Part shown: positions 10,457 to 57,202 of the stretch, one piece after another
Numbering within the stretch: the stretch's first letter is position 1
Layout: each line of letters opens with the position of its first letter
Source of the DNA: Stromatinia cepivora
Taxonomy: Eukaryota; Ascomycota; Leotiomycetes; Helotiales; Sclerotiniaceae
Assembly (NCBI GenBank): GCA_014898415.1
Contig: RCTD01000010.1
Span: 868,001 to 932,000, forward strand
Direction: 5' to 3'
DNA length: 64,000 bases
Notes under the pieces: generated by a model
Told to the model about the DNA's origin: nothing
The model's input: the letters and a program-made list of their open reading frames with translations, nothing else
Databases searched by the model: none
Translations under genes and position numbers: made by a program

Positions 10457-10469
10457 GAAACTTAAGATC

Positions 10470-10549
10470 GACGTCGGCATGATTCGAACATGCGCCCCCG
10501 AAAGGAATTGATTTCTAGTCAATCACGTTAACCACTCCGTCACGACGCC
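10470..10549 (-). tRNA. tRNA-Ser (anticodon AGA)
   Basis: Read on the minus strand, an 80-nt cloverleaf fits fully. The acceptor pairs GGCGTCG with CGACGTC (one G-T pair). The D arm has the ACG/CGT stem and a GGTTAA loop. The anticodon stem ATTGA/TCAAT encloses the loop CTAGAAA, giving anticodon AGA. A variable arm with a TCC/GGG stem, as in serine tRNAs, precedes the T arm GCATG-TTCGAAT-CATGC. There is no intron. The B box is intact. CCA is not encoded, as expected in eukaryotes. Confidence 0.95.
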
Positions 10550-26731: not shown

Positions 26732-28894
26732 ATGAGTAATTCTGATTCAATTTTGTTGATTCCTTCGGAAGGAGAGCATTCTCATTTACAAGGGGGAAAT
26801 GAAGAATCTGCCTCATCTTCATCAACATTTTCCGGCATACCTGGATTGGGCCGTCTTGGAAATGCGCCGAAATCTGAGAGTTCAAAACCATGCACGGGGA
26901 GCGACATCGCAGAAAACCACGTAGAAGAATCGGCTGTGTCCCAAGAGAAATTATCAGAAAGTACCAATGGTCAAGCTCAAGAAGATTCCACAATGGCAGA
27001 TGCCGAATCTTTACTTCAAGAATCTGCAACTTCTACAATTATTCACAACGCGACCTCAGAAATCCCCTCTAAAATCAAAGATGAGGGTTTGCAGGTGATG
27101 GGAATTGATTCAGAGCGAATAGAAAAACAAATTGATTCCGAGATGCGACAAGTTCCTCAAGAAGATGCCAAAGTCAGCACACATGACACCAACAGTAATG
27201 CGATGGACGCTGAGACTTTGAAGCCCGCCACAGAGCCACATGTCAAACAAGAAATAGAGGTGCGATCAGATGAATATCTAGGAGCTCAGCCTAGTACAAG
27301 CGATATCCAAGTACCAGAGAGTCACTCCGATCCGCCCAATCTGACACATGCTTTGGAGGCGATGCTGGGAGGTCTCATGCAACCTGCGGGCGTGGTTGCG
27401 GATGTTTCAACCACGGAAGATGCGCCAGCAGCACAGGCGACAGAATCTGAACACCCAGAATGGGAGATTGACTCATCTCCATATGAATCATCCTCCGACT
27501 CGTCAAGCGATAGTTCATCTGAAGACGACAGCGAAGATGAGGATGGAGAAAATACATATAAACTGTTAAGTCCAGAAGAGCAAGCTAGAATCCTGATGGA
27601 AGGTGATGGTGGTTCAGATGACGAGGGAACCTCCAAAGGTGCAAAGGGTGCTGGAGCTCAGCTACGGACGAAGAATGAAGTACCAGAGGAGATAATTCCC
27701 AAGCCAGACGTCACAATTACACTGGAAATGCCCATCACAAAATTGGGAGATGTGGAAGGAGTGGTGGACAACATCGTTCTCATCAAAGCTTTCACAACCG
27801 GAGAGTATCAAGTATTGAGAGAGGAATCTGTGTTATGTTTAGAGGATCGCAGTGTTATAGGTGTGGTCTCAGAAACATTGGGTAGAGTGGAACAGCCATT
27901 GTATTGTGTTAGGTTTACGAATGCCGCAGCAATTACTGAAGCAGGACTGTCCGTTGGGACAACAGTTTACTACTCTGAACAACACTCAACATACGTTTTT
28001 ACACAAGCTTTGAAGGCATACAAAGGCACAGATGCTTCCAACTTGTATGACGAAGAGGTCGGCGACGAGGAAATGGAATTCTCGGATGATGAAAAGGAAG
28101 CCGAGCACAAACGAAGGATAAAACAAAAGAAGGCAGAAAAGAGAGGTGGTAAGACCCAACAGAATGGTGGCCATTCACATGGCGGACATGCGTCGCAACA
28201 GTCGTACGCCGTCGGTAATGGCGCCGTGTTGAACTATGACGAAGCCGAGGATGGCCCTTATAAAACCCTCACTCGACCAACTGGATTTACTGGCGGTGCA
28301 AGTGGTGGTGAAGCCCCCCAAGAGGGTTCTCATTATAATAGACCAAATCAACGTGGTGATCATGTAGGTAGAGGCAGAGGAAGGGGTCGCGGGGATAGAG
28401 GCAGAGGAGATAGGGGTCGAGGACGAGGACGAGGTGGCGGAAATAATGATCGAAATAACAGCCATCCTCGTGGTGCCTCATCCCAAGCAAACAATGCATT
28501 TTCTCCGCCCAATCCAAGTCCTGGATTATTCAACTCTCAGCCAGCCTCCTTACCGCAAAAGCCTAACTTTCCACCTCCGCCACCTTCTTCAAACATATAC
28601 AGCAATCCGGTTCAGCCGCAACAATATCAACCTCAACAACCACAGCAATACCCATCACAGCAACCTCCAGTATGGCCAATGTACCCACAAGGTTACCAGC
28701 AACCATATCAACAACCTCAACCAAGTTTCCCGCCTGCACAGAGTAATTGGCCAGGCATGCCCCCTCCTCCTACCATACCAGCAGGAGCTTTCATAAATCC
28801 GGCATTCTTCACCCAGCAAAATGGATCAAATCAAAACAGAGGAAACCAATGGACCCATCCAGGGCAGCAAAATGGGAATGGAGAGAGCAGGTGA
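26732..28894 (+). CDS. NAF1: H/ACA snoRNP assembly factor NAF1
   Basis: NAF1 is needed for early assembly of box H/ACA snoRNPs and is later replaced by Gar1. This is a single-exon, 720-aa gene. Residues 1-310 are acidic, Ser/Glu/Asp-rich and disordered, with an SSDSSSDSSSEDDSEDEDGE run near 255. The Gar1-like beta-barrel core covers about 325-450 (LGDVEGVVDNIVLIKA, LCLEDRSVIGVVSETLGRVEQPLY, GTTVYYSEQHSTYVFT). A charged KR/E-rich segment follows, then an RGG-type region at about 544-570 (GRGRGRGRGDRGRGDRGRG), and a long Pro/Gln tail with poly-Pro stretches. This order (acidic, core, basic/RGG, PQ-rich) is the fungal NAF1 layout. Expected location is the nucleus. Confidence 0.95.
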   Translation: MSNSDSILLIPSEGEHSHLQGGNEESASSSSTFSGIPGLGRLGNAPKSESSKPCTGSDIAENHVEESAVSQEKLSESTNGQAQEDSTMADAESLLQESATSTIIHNATSEIPSKIKDEGLQVMGIDSERIEKQIDSEMRQVPQEDAKVSTHDTNSNAMDAETLKPATEPHVKQEIEVRSDEYLGAQPSTSDIQVPESHSDPPNLTHALEAMLGGLMQPAGVVADVSTTEDAPAAQATESEHPEWEIDSSPYESSSDSSSDSSSEDDSEDEDGENTYKLLSPEEQARILMEGDGGSDDEGTSKGAKGAGAQLRTKNEVPEEIIPKPDVTITLEMPITKLGDVEGVVDNIVLIKAFTTGEYQVLREESVLCLEDRSVIGVVSETLGRVEQPLYCVRFTNAAAITEAGLSVGTTVYYSEQHSTYVFTQALKAYKGTDASNLYDEEVGDEEMEFSDDEKEAEHKRRIKQKKAEKRGGKTQQNGGHSHGGHASQQSYAVGNGAVLNYDEAEDGPYKTLTRPTGFTGGASGGEAPQEGSHYNRPNQRGDHVGRGRGRGRGDRGRGDRGRGRGRGGGNNDRNNSHPRGASSQANNAFSPPNPSPGLFNSQPASLPQKPNFPPPPPSSNIYSNPVQPQQYQPQQPQQYPSQQPPVWPMYPQGYQQPYQQPQPSFPPAQSNWPGMPPPPTIPAGAFINPAFFTQQNGSNQNRGNQWTHPGQQNGNGESR

Positions 28895-41981: not shown

Positions 41982-44046
41982 GATGTAAAAGCAATTGTTA
42001 TCGTATAAACATGTTTTAAAGAGAATATGTTGTTTGAATAAAAGATGTTTCGAAATTCCAATCTTGAATCTTGATCAGATGGACCGTGAACGTTGGTAAT
42101 AATACGAAAGCGGGTAAGGCTACTTTGGGGTTTTGTAGATCCTTACGTAAGCATGCGATGACCAGGGTTCAATTTCTATTTTGGGAAAAAGAATATTCTT
42201 GGCATCTTCGACACAATGTAACCGCAGGTTGCAATAGAATGATCATCCCAAGGATTACGGATGACATTGAAAGACTGCACAAACGATTATGTAGCATCCT
42301 AGGACGCTCAAGTTACAAATTTAAAAAATCTCGGTTGTTATATAGGTGGTCCGAATAAATTGCGATAACATCAGATGCCTCTTCTTTTGGATTTGGCATT
42401 ATTCCACCAGACAAGAATGAAACTATATAGTCCTGTAATTACCAGTTAGCGAAGTGGATGATTTTACTCCTTCATCTTCTCTTGCGTTCAATAATTCTAT
42501 TTTGATGAGGAAACCCCGCTTCAAATGGGTGTCGTGAGCTCAGTTAGATGATATAAGACAACATCTGTTATAGATGGATATGAAGCGTGGTATCCAGAAT
42601 ACTAGAAACTTCTAGATTTGTGTTAGGGTTTAGAGGCACAAGAGGCAGCGTGGATTCAGATCGTGATGCTACCTAGGGTAAGGGCTTTCCCCGAAAACTA
42701 ATCTCGGTAATTGGCTCTAGTCTTTTTACTAGTGCTCTAGACTCGAGGTTTATCCCATTAGTACATTCGGATTCCAACGTTCTTCATCAAAGGCCGGCCT
42801 CAATGTGTCAAAAATTGAAAAGTTTGTCTGCCATAATGCGTCATCCATTGAGTCCTGAACTCCGAGGATATGACATGGACTGAACTTGTAGATTAGGAAA
42901 AATTGGATGGATAGACACTTCGTATGGCTAATCTATGATCAAAAATGTGACCAAATAGAGCATGCATCCACGAGCCAGAACATTCGGAAATGCCGATATG
43001 ATTTGCGCACAACGGAGTAAACTTATAAATTAGAAAAATTGATGATACTGTGTGGCAAATACCAACCTATGATGCGAAGATGCCAGAGCACAATGGAGAT
43101 GGAGGATGTTTGACTCAAATTATTACTATGATACATTACATGCAAGTTGAATTCGGGACATGAGGTGATGGAAGTCTGAACTGGCACCTGTCTTTGATTT
43201 GTAGTTTTTACCAAATGCATCTATTGTGATAGAGGAAAGAAATTGAAGAGCTTGCTATACTTACTTATACACTTGCTACCGGTCAGATTGAAAGTGAATA
43301 TCGTGGAAATGAACTTGAACATCAACTCAGACCATAATGAACGCTGTGAATATAAAATCAAGCATTTTGCAAGACAATGATGATTGCTACGATCTGAAAG
43401 ATAAACAGTACCGTTTTACATGCTGGAGGCCTGAAAATCCAAGCTGAATGAAGGCATACACGTGCAAAGGAATATCATGTAAAGGTTCAGAAGCAAAAAT
43501 ACGGGAGAAATGAGGAGTAAGTGAGATGAAAACTAGTGAGATCACTCAAGCGTGAGAGAAGACCAGGCCGATTTCGATCATATTCGAAAGTTGCTTGAGT
43601 ATCATTGGCCAATTTCCAATTAGACTGGAGGGCGATTTCAGATCACCAAGCTAGAATTAGCGGATTGCAAATTTCTATAAGTACCCTCCCACTTTCCCTT
43701 CCTTTCCTCCCTCCAAACATCGTCTTCTCTTTATTCAGATCACTTTTTCTACCCCACTACTACCTTGGGGTAATTCATTCTTTCTTTTACACATGTTACC
43801 TTTGGACTTCCGCTCTCGCCTTCGGGGTCTCGCTTACATCATCGACAATGTAAGGGTAGTATCAACAGTCATGTGTTGACTGCCATGGTGAGTTAGACCT
43901 TATTATCTCCCTTTCCACTGCTTCTCTTTTGATGAACTTACACATACTGCACCGTATGTAGTTTACAGACCTCATCTGGTGGGCCCCTAAGCCCCACCCA
44001 GGACGACTCGAACGATCGACACGAATAATGGATGTGGGGAGGAGTT
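41982..44046. other. intergenic, upstream of the hairpin array
   Basis: About 2.1 kb with no conserved gene. At 43680-43860 there is a pyrimidine-rich stretch followed by an ATG (43794) and a short frame ending at a GTAAGG donor (LPLDFRSRLRGLAYIIDN), which could be the start of a transcript that runs into the array; this is speculative. Nothing else is recognised. Confidence 0.45.
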
Positions 44047-44560
44047 CCAAGTCGCAGGGCGGCAGGTAGGCTTATCTGTTCGGGTCAAGTGCGGCTTGGT
44101 GGGAGGAGATCCAGACTACAGGGCGGCAAGTATACTTACTTGTTCAGGTCAAGTGTAGTCTGGTGGAGGAGGGCAGGATGGGGAGGTTGAATAGGGGGGG
44201 ATGGAGCGGAGGAAGGACAGGGATGGGGGGGAGGAATTCTAAACCACAGGGCGGCAGATAGGCTTATCTGTTCGGGTCAAGTGTGGTTTGGAAGGAGGGG
44301 ACCCAGGTTGCAGGGCGGCAAGTATACTTACTTGTTCAGGTCAAATGCAGTCTGGTGGTGGATGGTTGGGATGGGATGGGAGGACGAACAAAGGACGAAC
44401 GCTGGATGGAAGGAAGGAAGCTAGATTGTATAGGCGGCAAGTAGTCTTACTTGTTCAGGTCAAATGCGATTTGGTGGTGGAAGGCTAGGGCTGGGGGGAA
44501 GTGGCCTCAGATCGTACAGGCAGTAAACAGGCTTGTTTATGCAGGTCAAATGCGGTCTGG
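44047..44560. repeat. array of six ~53-nt two-stem hairpin elements with covarying stems
   Basis: Copies: 44047-44099, 44111-44163, 44239-44291, 44303-44355, 44421-44474, 44507-44560. Each is a 10-nt outer stem, a 6-nt GGGCGG-like strand, a 6-bp inner stem with a 4-nt loop, an 11-nt TTCRGGTCAAR strand, and the closing 10-nt stem. Outer stems: CCAAGTCGCA/TGCGGCTTGG, CCAGACTACA/TGTAGTCTGG, CTAAACCACA/TGTGGTTTGG, CCAGGTTGCA/TGCAGTCTGG, CTAGATTGTA/TGCGATTTGG, TCAGATCGTA/TGCGGTCTGG; differences are compensatory or G-T. Inner stems: CAGGTA/TATCTG, CAAGTA/TACTTG, CAGATA/TATCTG, CAAGTA/TACTTG, CAAGTA/TACTTG, TAAACA/TGTTTA. Spacers are G/A-rich on the plus strand. The strand of any transcript is unknown. 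I recognise no known RNA or element. Confidence 0.85.
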
Positions 44561-44614: not shown

Positions 44615-45261
44615 GCACGGATGTGCTTTATCTGCCAGGGATTTACAACCCCAAGGCCAAGTTTTATGGATTCTAGTGTTTTAATTAACACTAGGTGATG
44701 AAACTTAGATCTGCTCAGCATTACACTGTCGCTGGGTGGGTCTCATTCTATTCCTGGGCTAGCCTGGGGTAGGAAGAGGTCCTTTAGTTAATTCATTCAC
44801 TAATACAATAGTTTTGTGAGATCATGTGCATGATAATCTTTGTTTTATGTTAAGCTGAATTTGGAACCTGTTAACAGGAATTAGAGTTCTGTGACTGTAG
44901 ATCACTATGCCCTTTACTTGCCTAGCGTGAACCAGACAATCTTGCGTGACATTTGGTCTTACTTACTATCTAGTCCCTGTTGCTTGCTCTAGCCGAATTG
45001 AAAATACGGACTACTTTGAATACCGGACTCCCTCACAAACATGTCAGGTGCGATGTCATAGTGGGAAGCTAGAATAGGAGGTTAGTCCTAGCCCTCGGCT
45101 AATTAACATCGGCTTATGTAATCTTACATCTATGACGTCTTTTAAACTAATTAGTTTACCCTTTCCACGATCATTGGACCATTTAAGCAGTCTATACGCA
45201 CTATAATGAACTCAAATTTCTTAAGTTTCTCGAAAGAGCATGGAGAGAATTTGTTACTTTC
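44615..45261. other. intergenic between hairpin array and tandem duplication
   Basis: About 650 bp of non-coding DNA, AT-richer than the hairpin array. Nothing recognisable. Confidence 0.5.
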
Positions 45262-45470
45262 TGTTGCATGTCTGGATGCTACCCATTTGAGTTAGTTGAA
45301 CGGAAGAATTTATTTATTAGTTTGAATAAATTGGGGATTAGTTTTATGAAAAATGTGTATAAAAACCGATACTTTTGTTGCACGTCTGGATGCTACCCAT
45401 TAGAGTTAGTCGAACAGAGTAATTCGTTTAATTATTTGAATAAATTGAGGATTAGTTTCAAAAAAAAATT
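45262..45470. repeat. 113-bp tandem duplication
   Basis: Two diverged copies start TGTTGCAYGTCTGGATGCTA at 45262 and 45375. They share ACCCATT-GAGTTAGT-GAAC and TGAATAAATTG-GGATTAGTTT further in. The plus-strand frame stays open through both copies, so the same peptide pattern (SGCYP-ELVE, LNKL-ISF) appears twice, but with no gene context I treat it as non-coding. Confidence 0.75.
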
Positions 45471-46249: not shown

Positions 46250-46870
46250 ATGCTGGATTCTGGATTCTGCATTCTGCATTCTGGACACTGGGCTGGACTC
46301 AATACTGGACTGGATTCAACACTGGATTGTATTCAACACTGAACTGGATTCAATACTGGATTGGATTCAACAAACTCAATAATGGATTGGATTCAACACT
46401 GAACTGTACTCAAGACTGGATTGGATTCGATACTGGACTGGATTCAATACTGGACTGGATTCAACAAACTCAACAATGGATTGGATTCAACACTGAACTG
46501 TACTCAAGACTGGATTGGATTCGATACTGGACTGGATTCAATACTGGACTGGATTCAACAAACTCAACAATGGATTGGATTCAATACTGAACTGTACTCA
46601 AGACTGGATTGGATTCGATACTGGATACTGGATTGGATTCAACACTGAACTGGATTCAATACTGGACTGGATTCAACACTGGACTGGACTCAACACTGGA
46701 CTGGACTCAACACTGGACTGGACTCAACACTGGACTGGATTCGACAGTGGACACTAGATTCTCGACGCTGAATTGATTACTGGCCTTTGTACTGGACTCC
46801 GGATACTGGATTCTGGATTCTGGATTCTCGACAATGCACTGACTACTGGGCTCCGTACTGCCTACTGGAT
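46250..46870. repeat. CTGGATTC / ACTGGACTGGATTCAAC minisatellite
   Basis: A dense minisatellite built on ACTGGACTGGACTCAAC-like 17-nt units and shorter CTGGATTCTGG units. A higher-order period of 94 nt repeats about three times between 46365 and 46640 (the segment with CAACAAACTCAA, CTGTACTCAAGA and GGATTCGATACT). Because the unit length is not a multiple of three and lacks stops, several plus-strand frames stay open; the resulting Asp/Trp/Ile/Gln/Asn-rich peptides are an effect of the repeat and not genes. Confidence 0.9.
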
Positions 46871-55075: not shown

Positions 55076-57202
55076 CTAAAGAAAAGCCCCCTTTTCTCCC
55101 AACGCAGGATCCCTTCTGGGAGGGGAACGATTTCTCCTATATCCTTTATTTTCAGAACTCCATGGTTCCAATTCTTCTTCTTCATCGAATGAAGGGGTAG
55201 CAGAAGTGCCGGATGGACTTTGAGTTCTTGTATCACCTTTGACGAGTCCAAGTCTCTCTTCTTCAGTAGCATTCTTGATGATTTCATCGCTTCCATGTCG
55301 AGAACCGATGCGCTTTCGGTCGGGTGAGCGAATTTCTTGAGGGGGTCCGTCATTTTGTTGAGGTCCTCCGCTCTTTCTGAAGACATTTTGGAATGAGAAT
55401 TGTCTTTTGGCAGAGTGAGGTGGGGGTGTAGGCGGAACGAGGTTGCTAGATCTAGATAACGGACGGTGCGGATCTTCCGCTATAGTAATATGTCTACCTC
55501 CTGAACCAGTATATTCAGTCTTTTGGTCACGTAAAGCAGTTGGTAGGCCGAAAGTTTGATTATCATGAATGTAGTAAGCTTCATCGCTATGCTCGCTTTT
55601 GTAAATTTCACCATCACCACCTCTGTAGGTACGAATGTCGGTCAAGGGGACGGGATGAGTAGGATTTGGGACATTAGCCGCAGGATTTGTGCCTGATGAA
55701 AGTGATTTACCGCGAGTCACACGGCTGCGAATAGTGCCAAAGATGGAAGAACTAAGACCAGTGCCTGGACGATCTTCTTCGTCTCGGTCTTCCTCTGGAT
55801 CGGGGAAATGGGACATGCCAAGAGGTGGGTGTGCAATAGGTGTTCTAGGAAGAGTTGTTCTAGCGGTTGGTGTATGGCGCATAGTTTCGGGTAGAGGAGG
55901 AACGGCTGAGTCGGCACGAGATCTCATACTCATGCTATAGTTGGAGCCAATGGTGGTTCTACGTCTTCGAAGACCATCCCACTCAATGACCTCATGTTCA
56001 CCAAGCGGCTCCAGGATAGACTCTTCATGGAGCCTCTTGGCTTCCTCCATTTCCATCTTTTGTCTAGTTGTAGAGAATTTTCTAACAATAGCCGCTGCTC
56101 CTCTAATGGCATCAGCCTTTGGTTCAGTTTCTGGTTGTTCTTGTTCGGCAATTGTACGCATTTGGTCGAGATCACCTGCAAAAATGGCAGCATCGGGGAC
56201 GTCTTTGGCTGACTTCGAGAGCTGGAGAAGTACAACTCCAGAGCAAATAACAAAGAAACCCATGACGACCGTAATGATAGAAGTTGGGGTTCCTTTGAAC
56301 CCTCTAAATAAAATAGCGGAGGTGACGATAGTCGAGCTCGTAAACATAACATAATAAGTAGGAGTGACCAAGGCCGCGTTGAAGATATTGAGAGCTTTGT
56401 TCAAATATATGATCTCCGTCAAAAGTGTACAGATGACGAAGACGAACAAAACGTAAAGAAACCATTGGTTATACTGTTTTGTACCACCAATTTGGCTTAC
56501 AATTGCAGCTCCCAGACCTTGTGTCGCAACAACACTAAGTCCTCCAATCAAACTGCAAATTGACAAATACACAAGCATGGACTTCTTTCCATATCGCGGT
56601 CCAGCCCAAAAGGCAAGAAAGATACAGCCGATGATGATGACACCGGCGAAACTTAGAAAACCCGGGGCAATAACAAAATGTTGCATTTCCTGAATCGTTG
56701 CCGCAGAAGCCTCTGCCGGCGCATTCATTACAATAACCACCGATCCAATGATACATAGAAAGCATCCAACTTTCCCAACCATACTGAGACGTTCTTTAAG
56801 AAAAATTGCGGATAAGATGGTGGTGATGACGACACTCAGTGCGCCAAGCGGAGTAACCAAAATTGCATCAACAAATGCATATGCAACAAAGTTACAAATT
56901 TCTCCAAGAATCATAAGGGTCATTCCAGCCCACCAAAGGGCATTCTTAAGGTAGGCAAATCCTTCTCCAGCTTCTTCATTATATTTCTCATTGGCTTTCA
57001 ATAATCCAATCTTCTTCACGACAAAAGATATTCCAATGAAAACTCCTGAAGCCACCGCCAATGATATTCCAATTGCTTTATATATAGGTGGTCGAACCTC
57101 TGTATTCGCATTCGCATTCGTAGAAGAAGTTGTGCCATTCGTAGTATTTGCTCTGGTATATATGAGGTTGGCAGCCAGGAGAGCATGCCCGGCTTGATCC
57201 AT
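55076..57202 (-). CDS. NIPA-type magnesium transporter (DUF803)
   Basis: A single-exon, 708-aa membrane protein of the NIPA/DUF803 family (PF05653), proposed Mg2+ transporters of the DMT superfamily. The N-terminal ~40 residues are Thr/Asn-rich. Nine hydrophobic segments follow up to about residue 335. Family motifs include GVFIGISFVVKKIGL at the first helix, WWAGMTLMILGEICNFVAYA, ILVTPLGALSVVITTILSAI, FLKERLSMVGKVGC and LNKALNIFNAALVTPTYYV. The long cytosolic tail (about 340-708) is hydrophilic, Ser/Pro/Arg-rich and likely disordered and phosphorylated; such tails are usual in filamentous ascomycetes. Probable location: plasma membrane or endosome. Start is ATG at 57202, with a ~500-bp leader/promoter region upstream. 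Confidence 0.94.
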   Translation of the reverse strand: MDQAGHALLAANLIYTRANTTNGTTSSTNANANTEVRPPIYKAIGISLAVASGVFIGISFVVKKIGLLKANEKYNEEAGEGFAYLKNALWWAGMTLMILGEICNFVAYAFVDAILVTPLGALSVVITTILSAIFLKERLSMVGKVGCFLCIIGSVVIVMNAPAEASAATIQEMQHFVIAPGFLSFAGVIIIGCIFLAFWAGPRYGKKSMLVYLSICSLIGGLSVVATQGLGAAIVSQIGGTKQYNQWFLYVLFVFVICTLLTEIIYLNKALNIFNAALVTPTYYVMFTSSTIVTSAILFRGFKGTPTSIITVVMGFFVICSGVVLLQLSKSAKDVPDAAIFAGDLDQMRTIAEQEQPETEPKADAIRGAAAIVRKFSTTRQKMEMEEAKRLHEESILEPLGEHEVIEWDGLRRRRTTIGSNYSMSMRSRADSAVPPLPETMRHTPTARTTLPRTPIAHPPLGMSHFPDPEEDRDEEDRPGTGLSSSIFGTIRSRVTRGKSLSSGTNPAANVPNPTHPVPLTDIRTYRGGDGEIYKSEHSDEAYYIHDNQTFGLPTALRDQKTEYTGSGGRHITIAEDPHRPLSRSSNLVPPTPPPHSAKRQFSFQNVFRKSGGPQQNDGPPQEIRSPDRKRIGSRHGSDEIIKNATEEERLGLVKGDTRTQSPSGTSATPSFDEEEELEPWSSENKGYRRNRSPPRRDPALGEKGAFL

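Follow-up and report, generated by a model that had tools for sequence, protein, structure and literature searches.

A family of covarying RNA hairpins in Stromatinia cepivora, arrayed in tandem and present at the start of two candidate small RNA genes

Six RNA hairpins with one common fold (c1-c6) occur in tandem at 44047-44560 on the forward strand of a 64-kb stretch of the Stromatinia cepivora genome (hereafter referred to as the window), which forms part of contig C10 of an assembly of 55.7 Mb in 48 contigs. They belong to a family of ten copies at four loci, in which two stems change in a compensating manner and in which the copies on contigs C15 and C13 are part of a longer common unit. 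The comparison of the copies supports the action of selection on the RNA structure of the family, and the hairpin is probably a previously undescribed RNA part that is recognised by a protein or another partner. The reading preferred here, to which a probability of about 0.5 is assigned, is that the hairpin of a small-RNA parent was copied into the arrays, where it would serve as a docking platform or a decoy for a protein.

The six copies were found where the initial annotation had placed them. Their positions, together with a representative spacer, are as follows.

44047..44099, + strand: hairpin c1, subtype with GTTCGGGTC, model score 75.2 bits
44111..44163, + strand: hairpin c2, model score 75 bits
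44164..44238, + strand: spacer between c2 and c3, 75 nt, purine fraction 0.84
44239..44291, + strand: hairpin c3, model score 72.4 bits
44303..44355, + strand: hairpin c4, duplicate of c2, model score 75.1 bits
44421..44474, + strand: hairpin c5, model score 74.8 bits
44507..44560, + strand: hairpin c6, second subtype, model score 74.6 bits

The copies are arranged in pairs. The c1-c2 and c3-c4 units are duplicates (84% alike across 149 nt) and the c5-c6 pair corresponds to a pair of hairpins, d1-d2, on contig C34 (84% alike over 193 columns). The five spacers of the array have purine shares of 0.72-0.91 and are compatible with hairpins that fold independently. The successive spacings of the copies (64, 128, 64, 119 and 86) do not keep a reading frame and the array is, therefore, not a protein-coding repeat.

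Folded singly, each of the six hairpins was more stable than 200/200 of its own shuffles, with z values of -3.4 to -5.3. On a grid of 7993 windows of 56 nt across the 64 kb, those as stable as c1 to c6 numbered 2, 1, 3, 21, 78 and 35, respectively. A scan of the 64 kb for stretches with at least 18 of the 20 model pairs returned exactly c1-c6 on the forward strand and none on the reverse strand. Within a context of 672 nt folded with RNAfold, c1-c3 were retained with mean pair probabilities of 0.89-0.95, and c4-c6 took other folds, with mean pair probabilities of 0.10-0.39.

At its base, the consensus consists of an outer stem of 10 pairs followed by 2-3 bases of the 5' strand opposite AAR of the 3' strand; above these lie GGC opposite GUC, a 3' bulge CRG, one variable pair, an inner stem and the loop NNCU. 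The inner stem, annotated initially with 6 bp, has 7 pairs, of which one is an invariant G-U. The fixed core can be written as GGC[G/A/U]G facing CRGGUCAA. It corresponds to what had been described as a conserved and unpaired internal loop; the conservation stands, but the unpaired state probably does not, as this region seems to contain an invariant GGC/GUC helix, which is part of the lowest-energy fold in c1-c5 and in e1, the copy on C15. In c6 and its C34 relative d2, the lowest-energy fold keeps both stems and pairs the core differently, and d1 folded alone adopts a different lowest-energy fold. Covariation is silent, for or against, on the GGC/GUC helix, because the core never varies. A common strand layout had been proposed for all six copies, which holds in that a single fold is shared, with the qualification that c5 and c6 have one additional base in the 5' strand and that c6 represents a second subtype, with GGCAG/TGCAGG in place of GGCGG/TTCRGG. 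In this subtype c6, d2 and the 5' hairpin of the candidate small RNA on C15 are alike. Similarly, the statement that the strands between the stems barely change is accurate for GGC/GUC, where no change was counted, but not for positions 17, 36, 38 and 45, which vary. Counted on the tree of the ten copies, the changes per column amount to 0 in the six columns of the GGC/GUC core, 0.5 in the CRG and AAR strands, 1.0 in the loop, 1.07 in the inner stem, 1.8 in the outer stem and 2.0 in the single pair above the core.

The family extends past the window. A DNA search of the genome with the array retrieved C34, with two copies, and C15, with a single copy that matches at 93% over 43 nt. The C15 locus, used as the query in turn, led to C13 (72% identity over 159 columns), where the hairpin model scores 33.6 bits (E 2e-7), and a search from C13 retrieved C13 and C15 only. 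The genome total is ten copies at four loci, i.e. six on C10, a tandem pair on C34 and single copies on C15 and C13, that on C13 being diverged; this number is a lower bound, as word-seed and pattern searches would miss diverged copies. The c6 hairpin is 95% identical to d2, 80% to the C15 copy and 64% to the C13 copy, the latter two being 66% identical to each other. Three pattern searches recovered 6, 9 and 9 of the nine close copies and all of them missed C13; a last pattern search of the genome, unable by design to match c1-c3, gave ten rows for seven copies and no added member. Several non-member pattern rows were rejected. Two of 11 rows (L023 and L024) and one of 11 rows, on contig C6 (L050), had no match to the hairpin model, and seven of 16 rows comprised a six-row array on contig C1 and one row on C3 (L033), the model being unmatched at L027 and L033. 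The C1 rows (C1:767670-768209, reverse strand, L027-L032) form a tandem array of their own, with 72-nt (and 144-nt) spacing and a unit with GGCGGACTAGGTATCACCTCTTGTAGGCGGGTCAAA. Pattern scans gave 0 matches in the viral contigs and 0 in the prokaryote genomes, and a scan of the viral contigs for fungal DNA by way of a neighbouring protein gave no relative. When one open frame of the array was compared with the protein database in search of mis-annotated fungal homologs, there was 1 candidate and none scored.

Two alignments were used for the analysis of covariation, A2 with the nine close copies and A4 with all ten including the diverged C13 copy, and no row was dropped. Standard pairs occupy 179/180 pair cells among the nine close copies and 203/210 among the ten, with two-sided changes in 11 of the 21 pairs. 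The changes at outer-stem positions 4, 5, 7 and 8, which had been noticed earlier in the six copies, are indeed two-sided there, and position 6 joins them among the nine close copies. Column shuffles can be misled by the kinship of the copies; a tree null was therefore added, in the form of a simple simulation of our own in which columns evolve independently along the tree of the copies. The ten-row tree has weak branches; its statistics include the pair 17/36, which the nine-row statistics exclude. For the ten rows, 0/3000 runs reached 203/210 standard cells and 0/3000 reached 11 two-sided pairs. The corresponding values for the nine rows were 0/3000 for the percentage paired, 0/3000 for the covariation score and 2/3000 for the number of two-sided pairs. 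Among shuffles of the nine rows, 0/500 equalled the observed percentage paired, 0/500 the count of two-sided cells and 0/500 the covariation score, and 1/500 attained the number of two-sided pairs; none of six shifted versions of the pairing (0/6) came near the observed values. Taken stem by stem in the nine-row null, the covariation score was reached in 0/2000 runs for the outer and 0/2000 for the inner stem, the percentage paired in 1/2000 and 3/2000, and the number of two-sided pairs in 114/2000 and 32/2000, respectively. Further pair types occur in an ordinary number, which was attained in 448/500 shuffles of nine rows and 172/500 of ten, and the C13 copy breaks 3 of the 21 pairs. The earlier proposal of selection on structure is thus supported with ten copies, a tree null, and slide and shuffle controls.

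The forward strand is probably the RNA strand, judging from the sequence. The variable pairs of the nine close copies hold 16 G-U cells, no A-C cell and one T-C cell, in d1, and nine variable pairs include G-U vs none with A-C (simple sign test 0.002). This asymmetry is support for the forward strand and not proof of it, because the diverged C13 copy has one C-A cell and because an equal asymmetry is ordinary under a null that preserves the letters of the columns (1013/3000). The minus strand folds worse in 9/9 close copies.

The C15 and C13 loci have about 155 nt in common, the hairpin included, with 114/159 columns identical (72%). Beyond the hairpin, this stretch contains two further candidate hairpins, one of AAAACCC/GGGTTT type and one that is GC-rich and has TTCGA in its loop region, as well as the tail GGGCGGTAAGGTTTTGC, which is identical in 17/17 nt. 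A CTATATAAA box stands 33 nt upstream of the hairpin on C15 and 32 nt on C13, and 29 and 28 nt, respectively, ahead of a common CCATC; the tail ends 152 nt (C15) and 147 nt (C13) past the start of the hairpin. The BLAST similarity is confined to the interval from CCATC to the tail, and the CTATATAAA box is visible in a wider alignment. Both loci have TTTT after the last hairpin and A-box-like matches at similar places. A TATA box at about -30 and an end in a T-run would suit RNA polymerase III, but no B box (GWTCRANNC) was found in 500 nt. C15 and C13 look like two genes for a small RNA of some 150-160 nt that starts with the hairpin, its ends being predictions. The whole C15 strand (156 nt) gave a z of -0.88 against shuffles, 40/200 being as stable, and the whole C13 strand (151 nt) a z of -1.81, with 9/200 as stable; the hairpin is present in the lowest-energy fold of the former and absent from that of the latter, and RNAalifold on the two rows gave a partly different fold. 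Owing to these results and to the three broken pairs of C13, the longer predicted structure is not taken as proven. Two open reading frames were observed near the C15 copy, one of 239 aa that contains cysteines, has no Pfam domain and starts about 0.9 kb past the hairpin, and one with eRF1 domains 1-3 about 4.9 kb past it (L013 4993-6147, + strand).

The array probably sits in exon 2 of a non-coding transcript, for which the following features are predicted from the sequence.

43676..43681, + strand: TATAAG, possible TATA box of the predicted array transcript
43888..43968, + strand: predicted intron GTGAGT...CAG, joining a pyrimidine-rich first exon to the array exon

The C34 locus has a counterpart of TATAAG at a like place (L002:1324) and a predicted intron GTAAGT...GCTAAT...TAG before its copies (L002:1450-1492), such that the hairpins of both loci are preceded by TATAAG, by a stretch rich in pyrimidines and by predicted splice sites, a good one at the 5' end of the intron and another at its 3' end. 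The similarity of C10 to C34 begins 8 nt after the predicted start of exon 2 of C34, a point that lies between c4 and c5 in the window, and ends about 10 nt past the last hairpin. The starts of exon 2 are alike, with 1/300 shuffles scoring as high; homology is not clear for the introns (98/300 as high), and for the first exons, which have CTTCGGGGTC in common, it was rejected as not clear (19/300 as high). Neither C10 nor C34 matches C15 in the flanks beyond the hairpin, downstream flanks being compared too. The sole ORF of at least 100 aa on the C34 stretch overlaps the hairpins.

Other features of the window were recorded in passing. A 114-nt unit is present in about 1.9 copies (85% matches) at 45255-45467, and a minisatellite with periods of 17 nt and 94 nt and ACACTGGACTGGATTCA units occupies 46285-46752, in the same intergenic region 1.7 kb past the array. 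A 720-aa ORF with a Gar1/Naf1 domain (26732-28894, + strand) was found some 15 kb away from the array, which is probably a coincidence. The protein encoded at 55076-57202 (reverse strand) is 96% identical to a Sclerotinia nivalis protein and 83-91% to proteins of named Botrytis, Monilinia and Ciborinia species and of Sclerotinia borealis.

Comparison with Rfam 15 (4227 families, self-cleaving ribozymes included) gave no match for the element at gathering or lax thresholds, the best having an E of 3 and a score below about half of the gathering score. A model of a plant-virus pseudoknot (26 nt) at 44069-44094 was dismissed as chance-level (E 8.1). At the gathering threshold, Rfam matched the window once, at a tRNA gene (10469-10549, reverse strand). 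The 3' strand GCAGGUCAAA presumably resembles helix 8 of human SRP RNA, which we take to differ from the hairpin in the opposite strand and the loop; none of the SRP models in Rfam matched at E 10. In a kink-turn, a three-nt bulge is followed by tandem sheared G-A pairs, and the rpl30 motif of fungi is a kink-turn with such G-A pairs. A kink-turn protein site was rejected for the present hairpin: on inspection of alignment A4 by eye, the bases after its CRG bulge are GUC, which faces GGC, and no GA faces GA. The roX RNAs of Drosophila are spliced non-coding RNAs whose tandem stem-loops are bound by MLE. The likeness lies in tandem stem-loop copies that present a protein site several times; the sequence, the fold and the organism differ, and the partner of the fungal hairpin is putative. 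We know of no small RNA parent for the roX RNAs.

No description of this hairpin element was met in the parts of the literature on fungal structured RNAs that were searched. The conserved intergenic structures 1-4 of Gao, Jones and Rivas (2021) are stand-alone structured RNAs of ascomycetes, and the article also reports guide-like RNAs from intergenic regions that consist of a single hairpin and keep their interior loops conserved (PMC8216456). Structure 2, of the Pezizomycotina, has an average length of 144 nt, and the text does not name it with those that have an H box (PMC8216456). It is near the C15/C13 RNA in size and the latter could be structure 2, a likeness of size and description; structures 1-4 differ in being predominantly single copy per genome, and the words tandem, Sclerotinia and Botrytis are absent from the main text of the article (PMC8216456). 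If the C15/C13 RNA is structure 2, the parent would already be known as an orphan and the arrays would be the new part. Li and Breaker (2017) found fungal structured RNA motifs by covariation, including an AU-rich hairpin with 8 of its 12 examples in one species; the candidates described in the text consulted are motifs other than the array hairpin, and tandem, repeat, Sclerotinia and Botry are absent from its main text (PMC5640933). Among the motifs of that text, rpl30 is a hairpin with a purine-rich internal loop, proposed as a site for ribosomal protein L30 (PMC5640933). It resembles the present element in that a protein site is proposed from an internal loop between two stems, and differs in its location, as described there, in the 5' UTR of one gene.

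Several other explanations of the hairpins were weighed. Fixed internal strands on changing stems resemble the pockets of H/ACA-like pseudouridylation guides, whose strands would be fixed by pairing with one target RNA. In the 14 nt past the outer stem, however, an H box (ANANNA) was found in 0/10 copies and ACA in 1/10 (c6), the 3' strand and the outer stem together span about 20 nt where the pocket-to-box distance of H/ACA RNAs is 14-16 nt, and the Rfam snoRNA matches are chance-level (snoR28, E 7.1; SNORA50, E 6.6; SNORD41, E 3, outside the element); we regard a guide as improbable. As a separate observation, an 18-base small-subunit rRNA motif has no exact match in the assembly, from which nuclear rDNA may be absent. 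The hairpin is compact, and its fixed core might also be the pocket of a riboswitch-like metabolite aptamer, with tandem copies for a cooperative response. This seems still less probable, since no locus lies in an evident gene leader and no Rfam riboswitch matched: after the array the next forward ORF with a Pfam domain among those tested, which left aside some small ORFs in between, is LigB at about 51 kb, with its start codon 6.5 kb on; C34 has no ORF of at least 100 aa in the 7.4 kb after the hairpins; and the C15 ORF begins about 0.9 kb away. A tandem layout with an invariant asymmetric core would suit a self-cleaving ribozyme that frees its units by cleavage, an option raised by the initial annotation. 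Even with E relaxed to 10, Rfam offered no ribozyme match; the initial annotation had seen no fit to the hammerhead, twister, pistol, hairpin or HDV cores. The copies on C15 and C13 are single and at the 5' end of a predicted small RNA, where processing of a multimer is not needed; this reading is highly improbable.

An origin at the DNA level, as the end or relic of a small mobile element or as a single-strand DNA hairpin recognised by an enzyme, would account for palindromic arms and for copies dispersed over four loci. Against it stand the small number of copies found (at least 10 in 55.7 Mb), the match of C10 and C34 to C15 in the hairpin alone, the two-sided change of 11 pairs and the presence of G-U without A-C in the variable pairs of the nine close copies, which together leave it very improbable. 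A MITE or SINE was rejected, as many dispersed copies with common ends beyond the hairpin would be expected of it, where at least ten copies at four loci were found. Nor do the homologs look like bare palindromic transposon ends, as had been considered at the outset: the internal core is kept in the homologs of this genome, and the copies are unlike such ends in being few, in having unlike flanks and, on C15 and C13, in forming part of a longer common unit. More serious, though still doubtful, is the view that the hairpin module is real and only the arrays are functional, C15 and C13 being relics and not small RNA genes. The three pairs broken in C13, its lowest-energy fold without the hairpin, and the failure of either whole strand to clearly beat its shuffles are in keeping with it. 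It does not readily explain a box-to-hairpin distance constant to within 1 nt, nor a tail, GGGCGGTAAGGTTTTGC, identical over 17 nt despite an overall match of 72%.

Compensatory stem changes around a fixed core are the pattern expected from a partner that reads both core and shape. Among the options that the initial annotation offered, a hairpin recognised by a protein fits best, and a protein site is favoured by the position of the hairpin at the 5' end of a candidate small RNA together with its multiplication in purine-spaced arrays. In the preferred reading, the parent would be the hairpin at the 5' end of a stand-alone RNA, about 150-160 nt long and encoded at C15/C13, which would start about 30 nt past CTATATAAA. 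A copy of a C15-like hairpin, without the remainder of the small RNA, would then have reached two further transcription units and would have been multiplied in each, to a pair on C34 and to six hairpins in the window, with purine-rich spacers and in a non-coding exon. The closer identity of c6 to C15 (80%) than to C13 (64%) suggests that a C15-like hairpin seeded the arrays; the support for this direction of copying is modest, with short sequences and weak branches. Most likely, the fixed core would be recognised by a protein that acts with the small RNA, and the arrays would offer this core repeatedly, either to dock the protein on a platform or, as a decoy, to draw it away from the small RNA. 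The 7SK and roX RNAs are known to control the availability of proteins. A more specific version, in which the transcripts with two and six copies, built from the 5' hairpin of an undescribed small nuclear-type RNA, are natural multi-site decoys (a sponge) that titrate the protein of this RNA of the fungus's own, is put forward tentatively, as possible and rather less than likely.

Motifs multiplied inside one non-coding transcript are uncommon, and each copy acts as an internal replicate of selection, such that strong covariation evidence was obtained within a single genome. The short fixed core is usable for fishing out the binding partner. If the decoy reading is true, the array would be a natural RNA sponge built from a domain of the small RNA itself. 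In a fungal family associated with plants, the copies point to a parent RNA that exists as a free-standing molecule.
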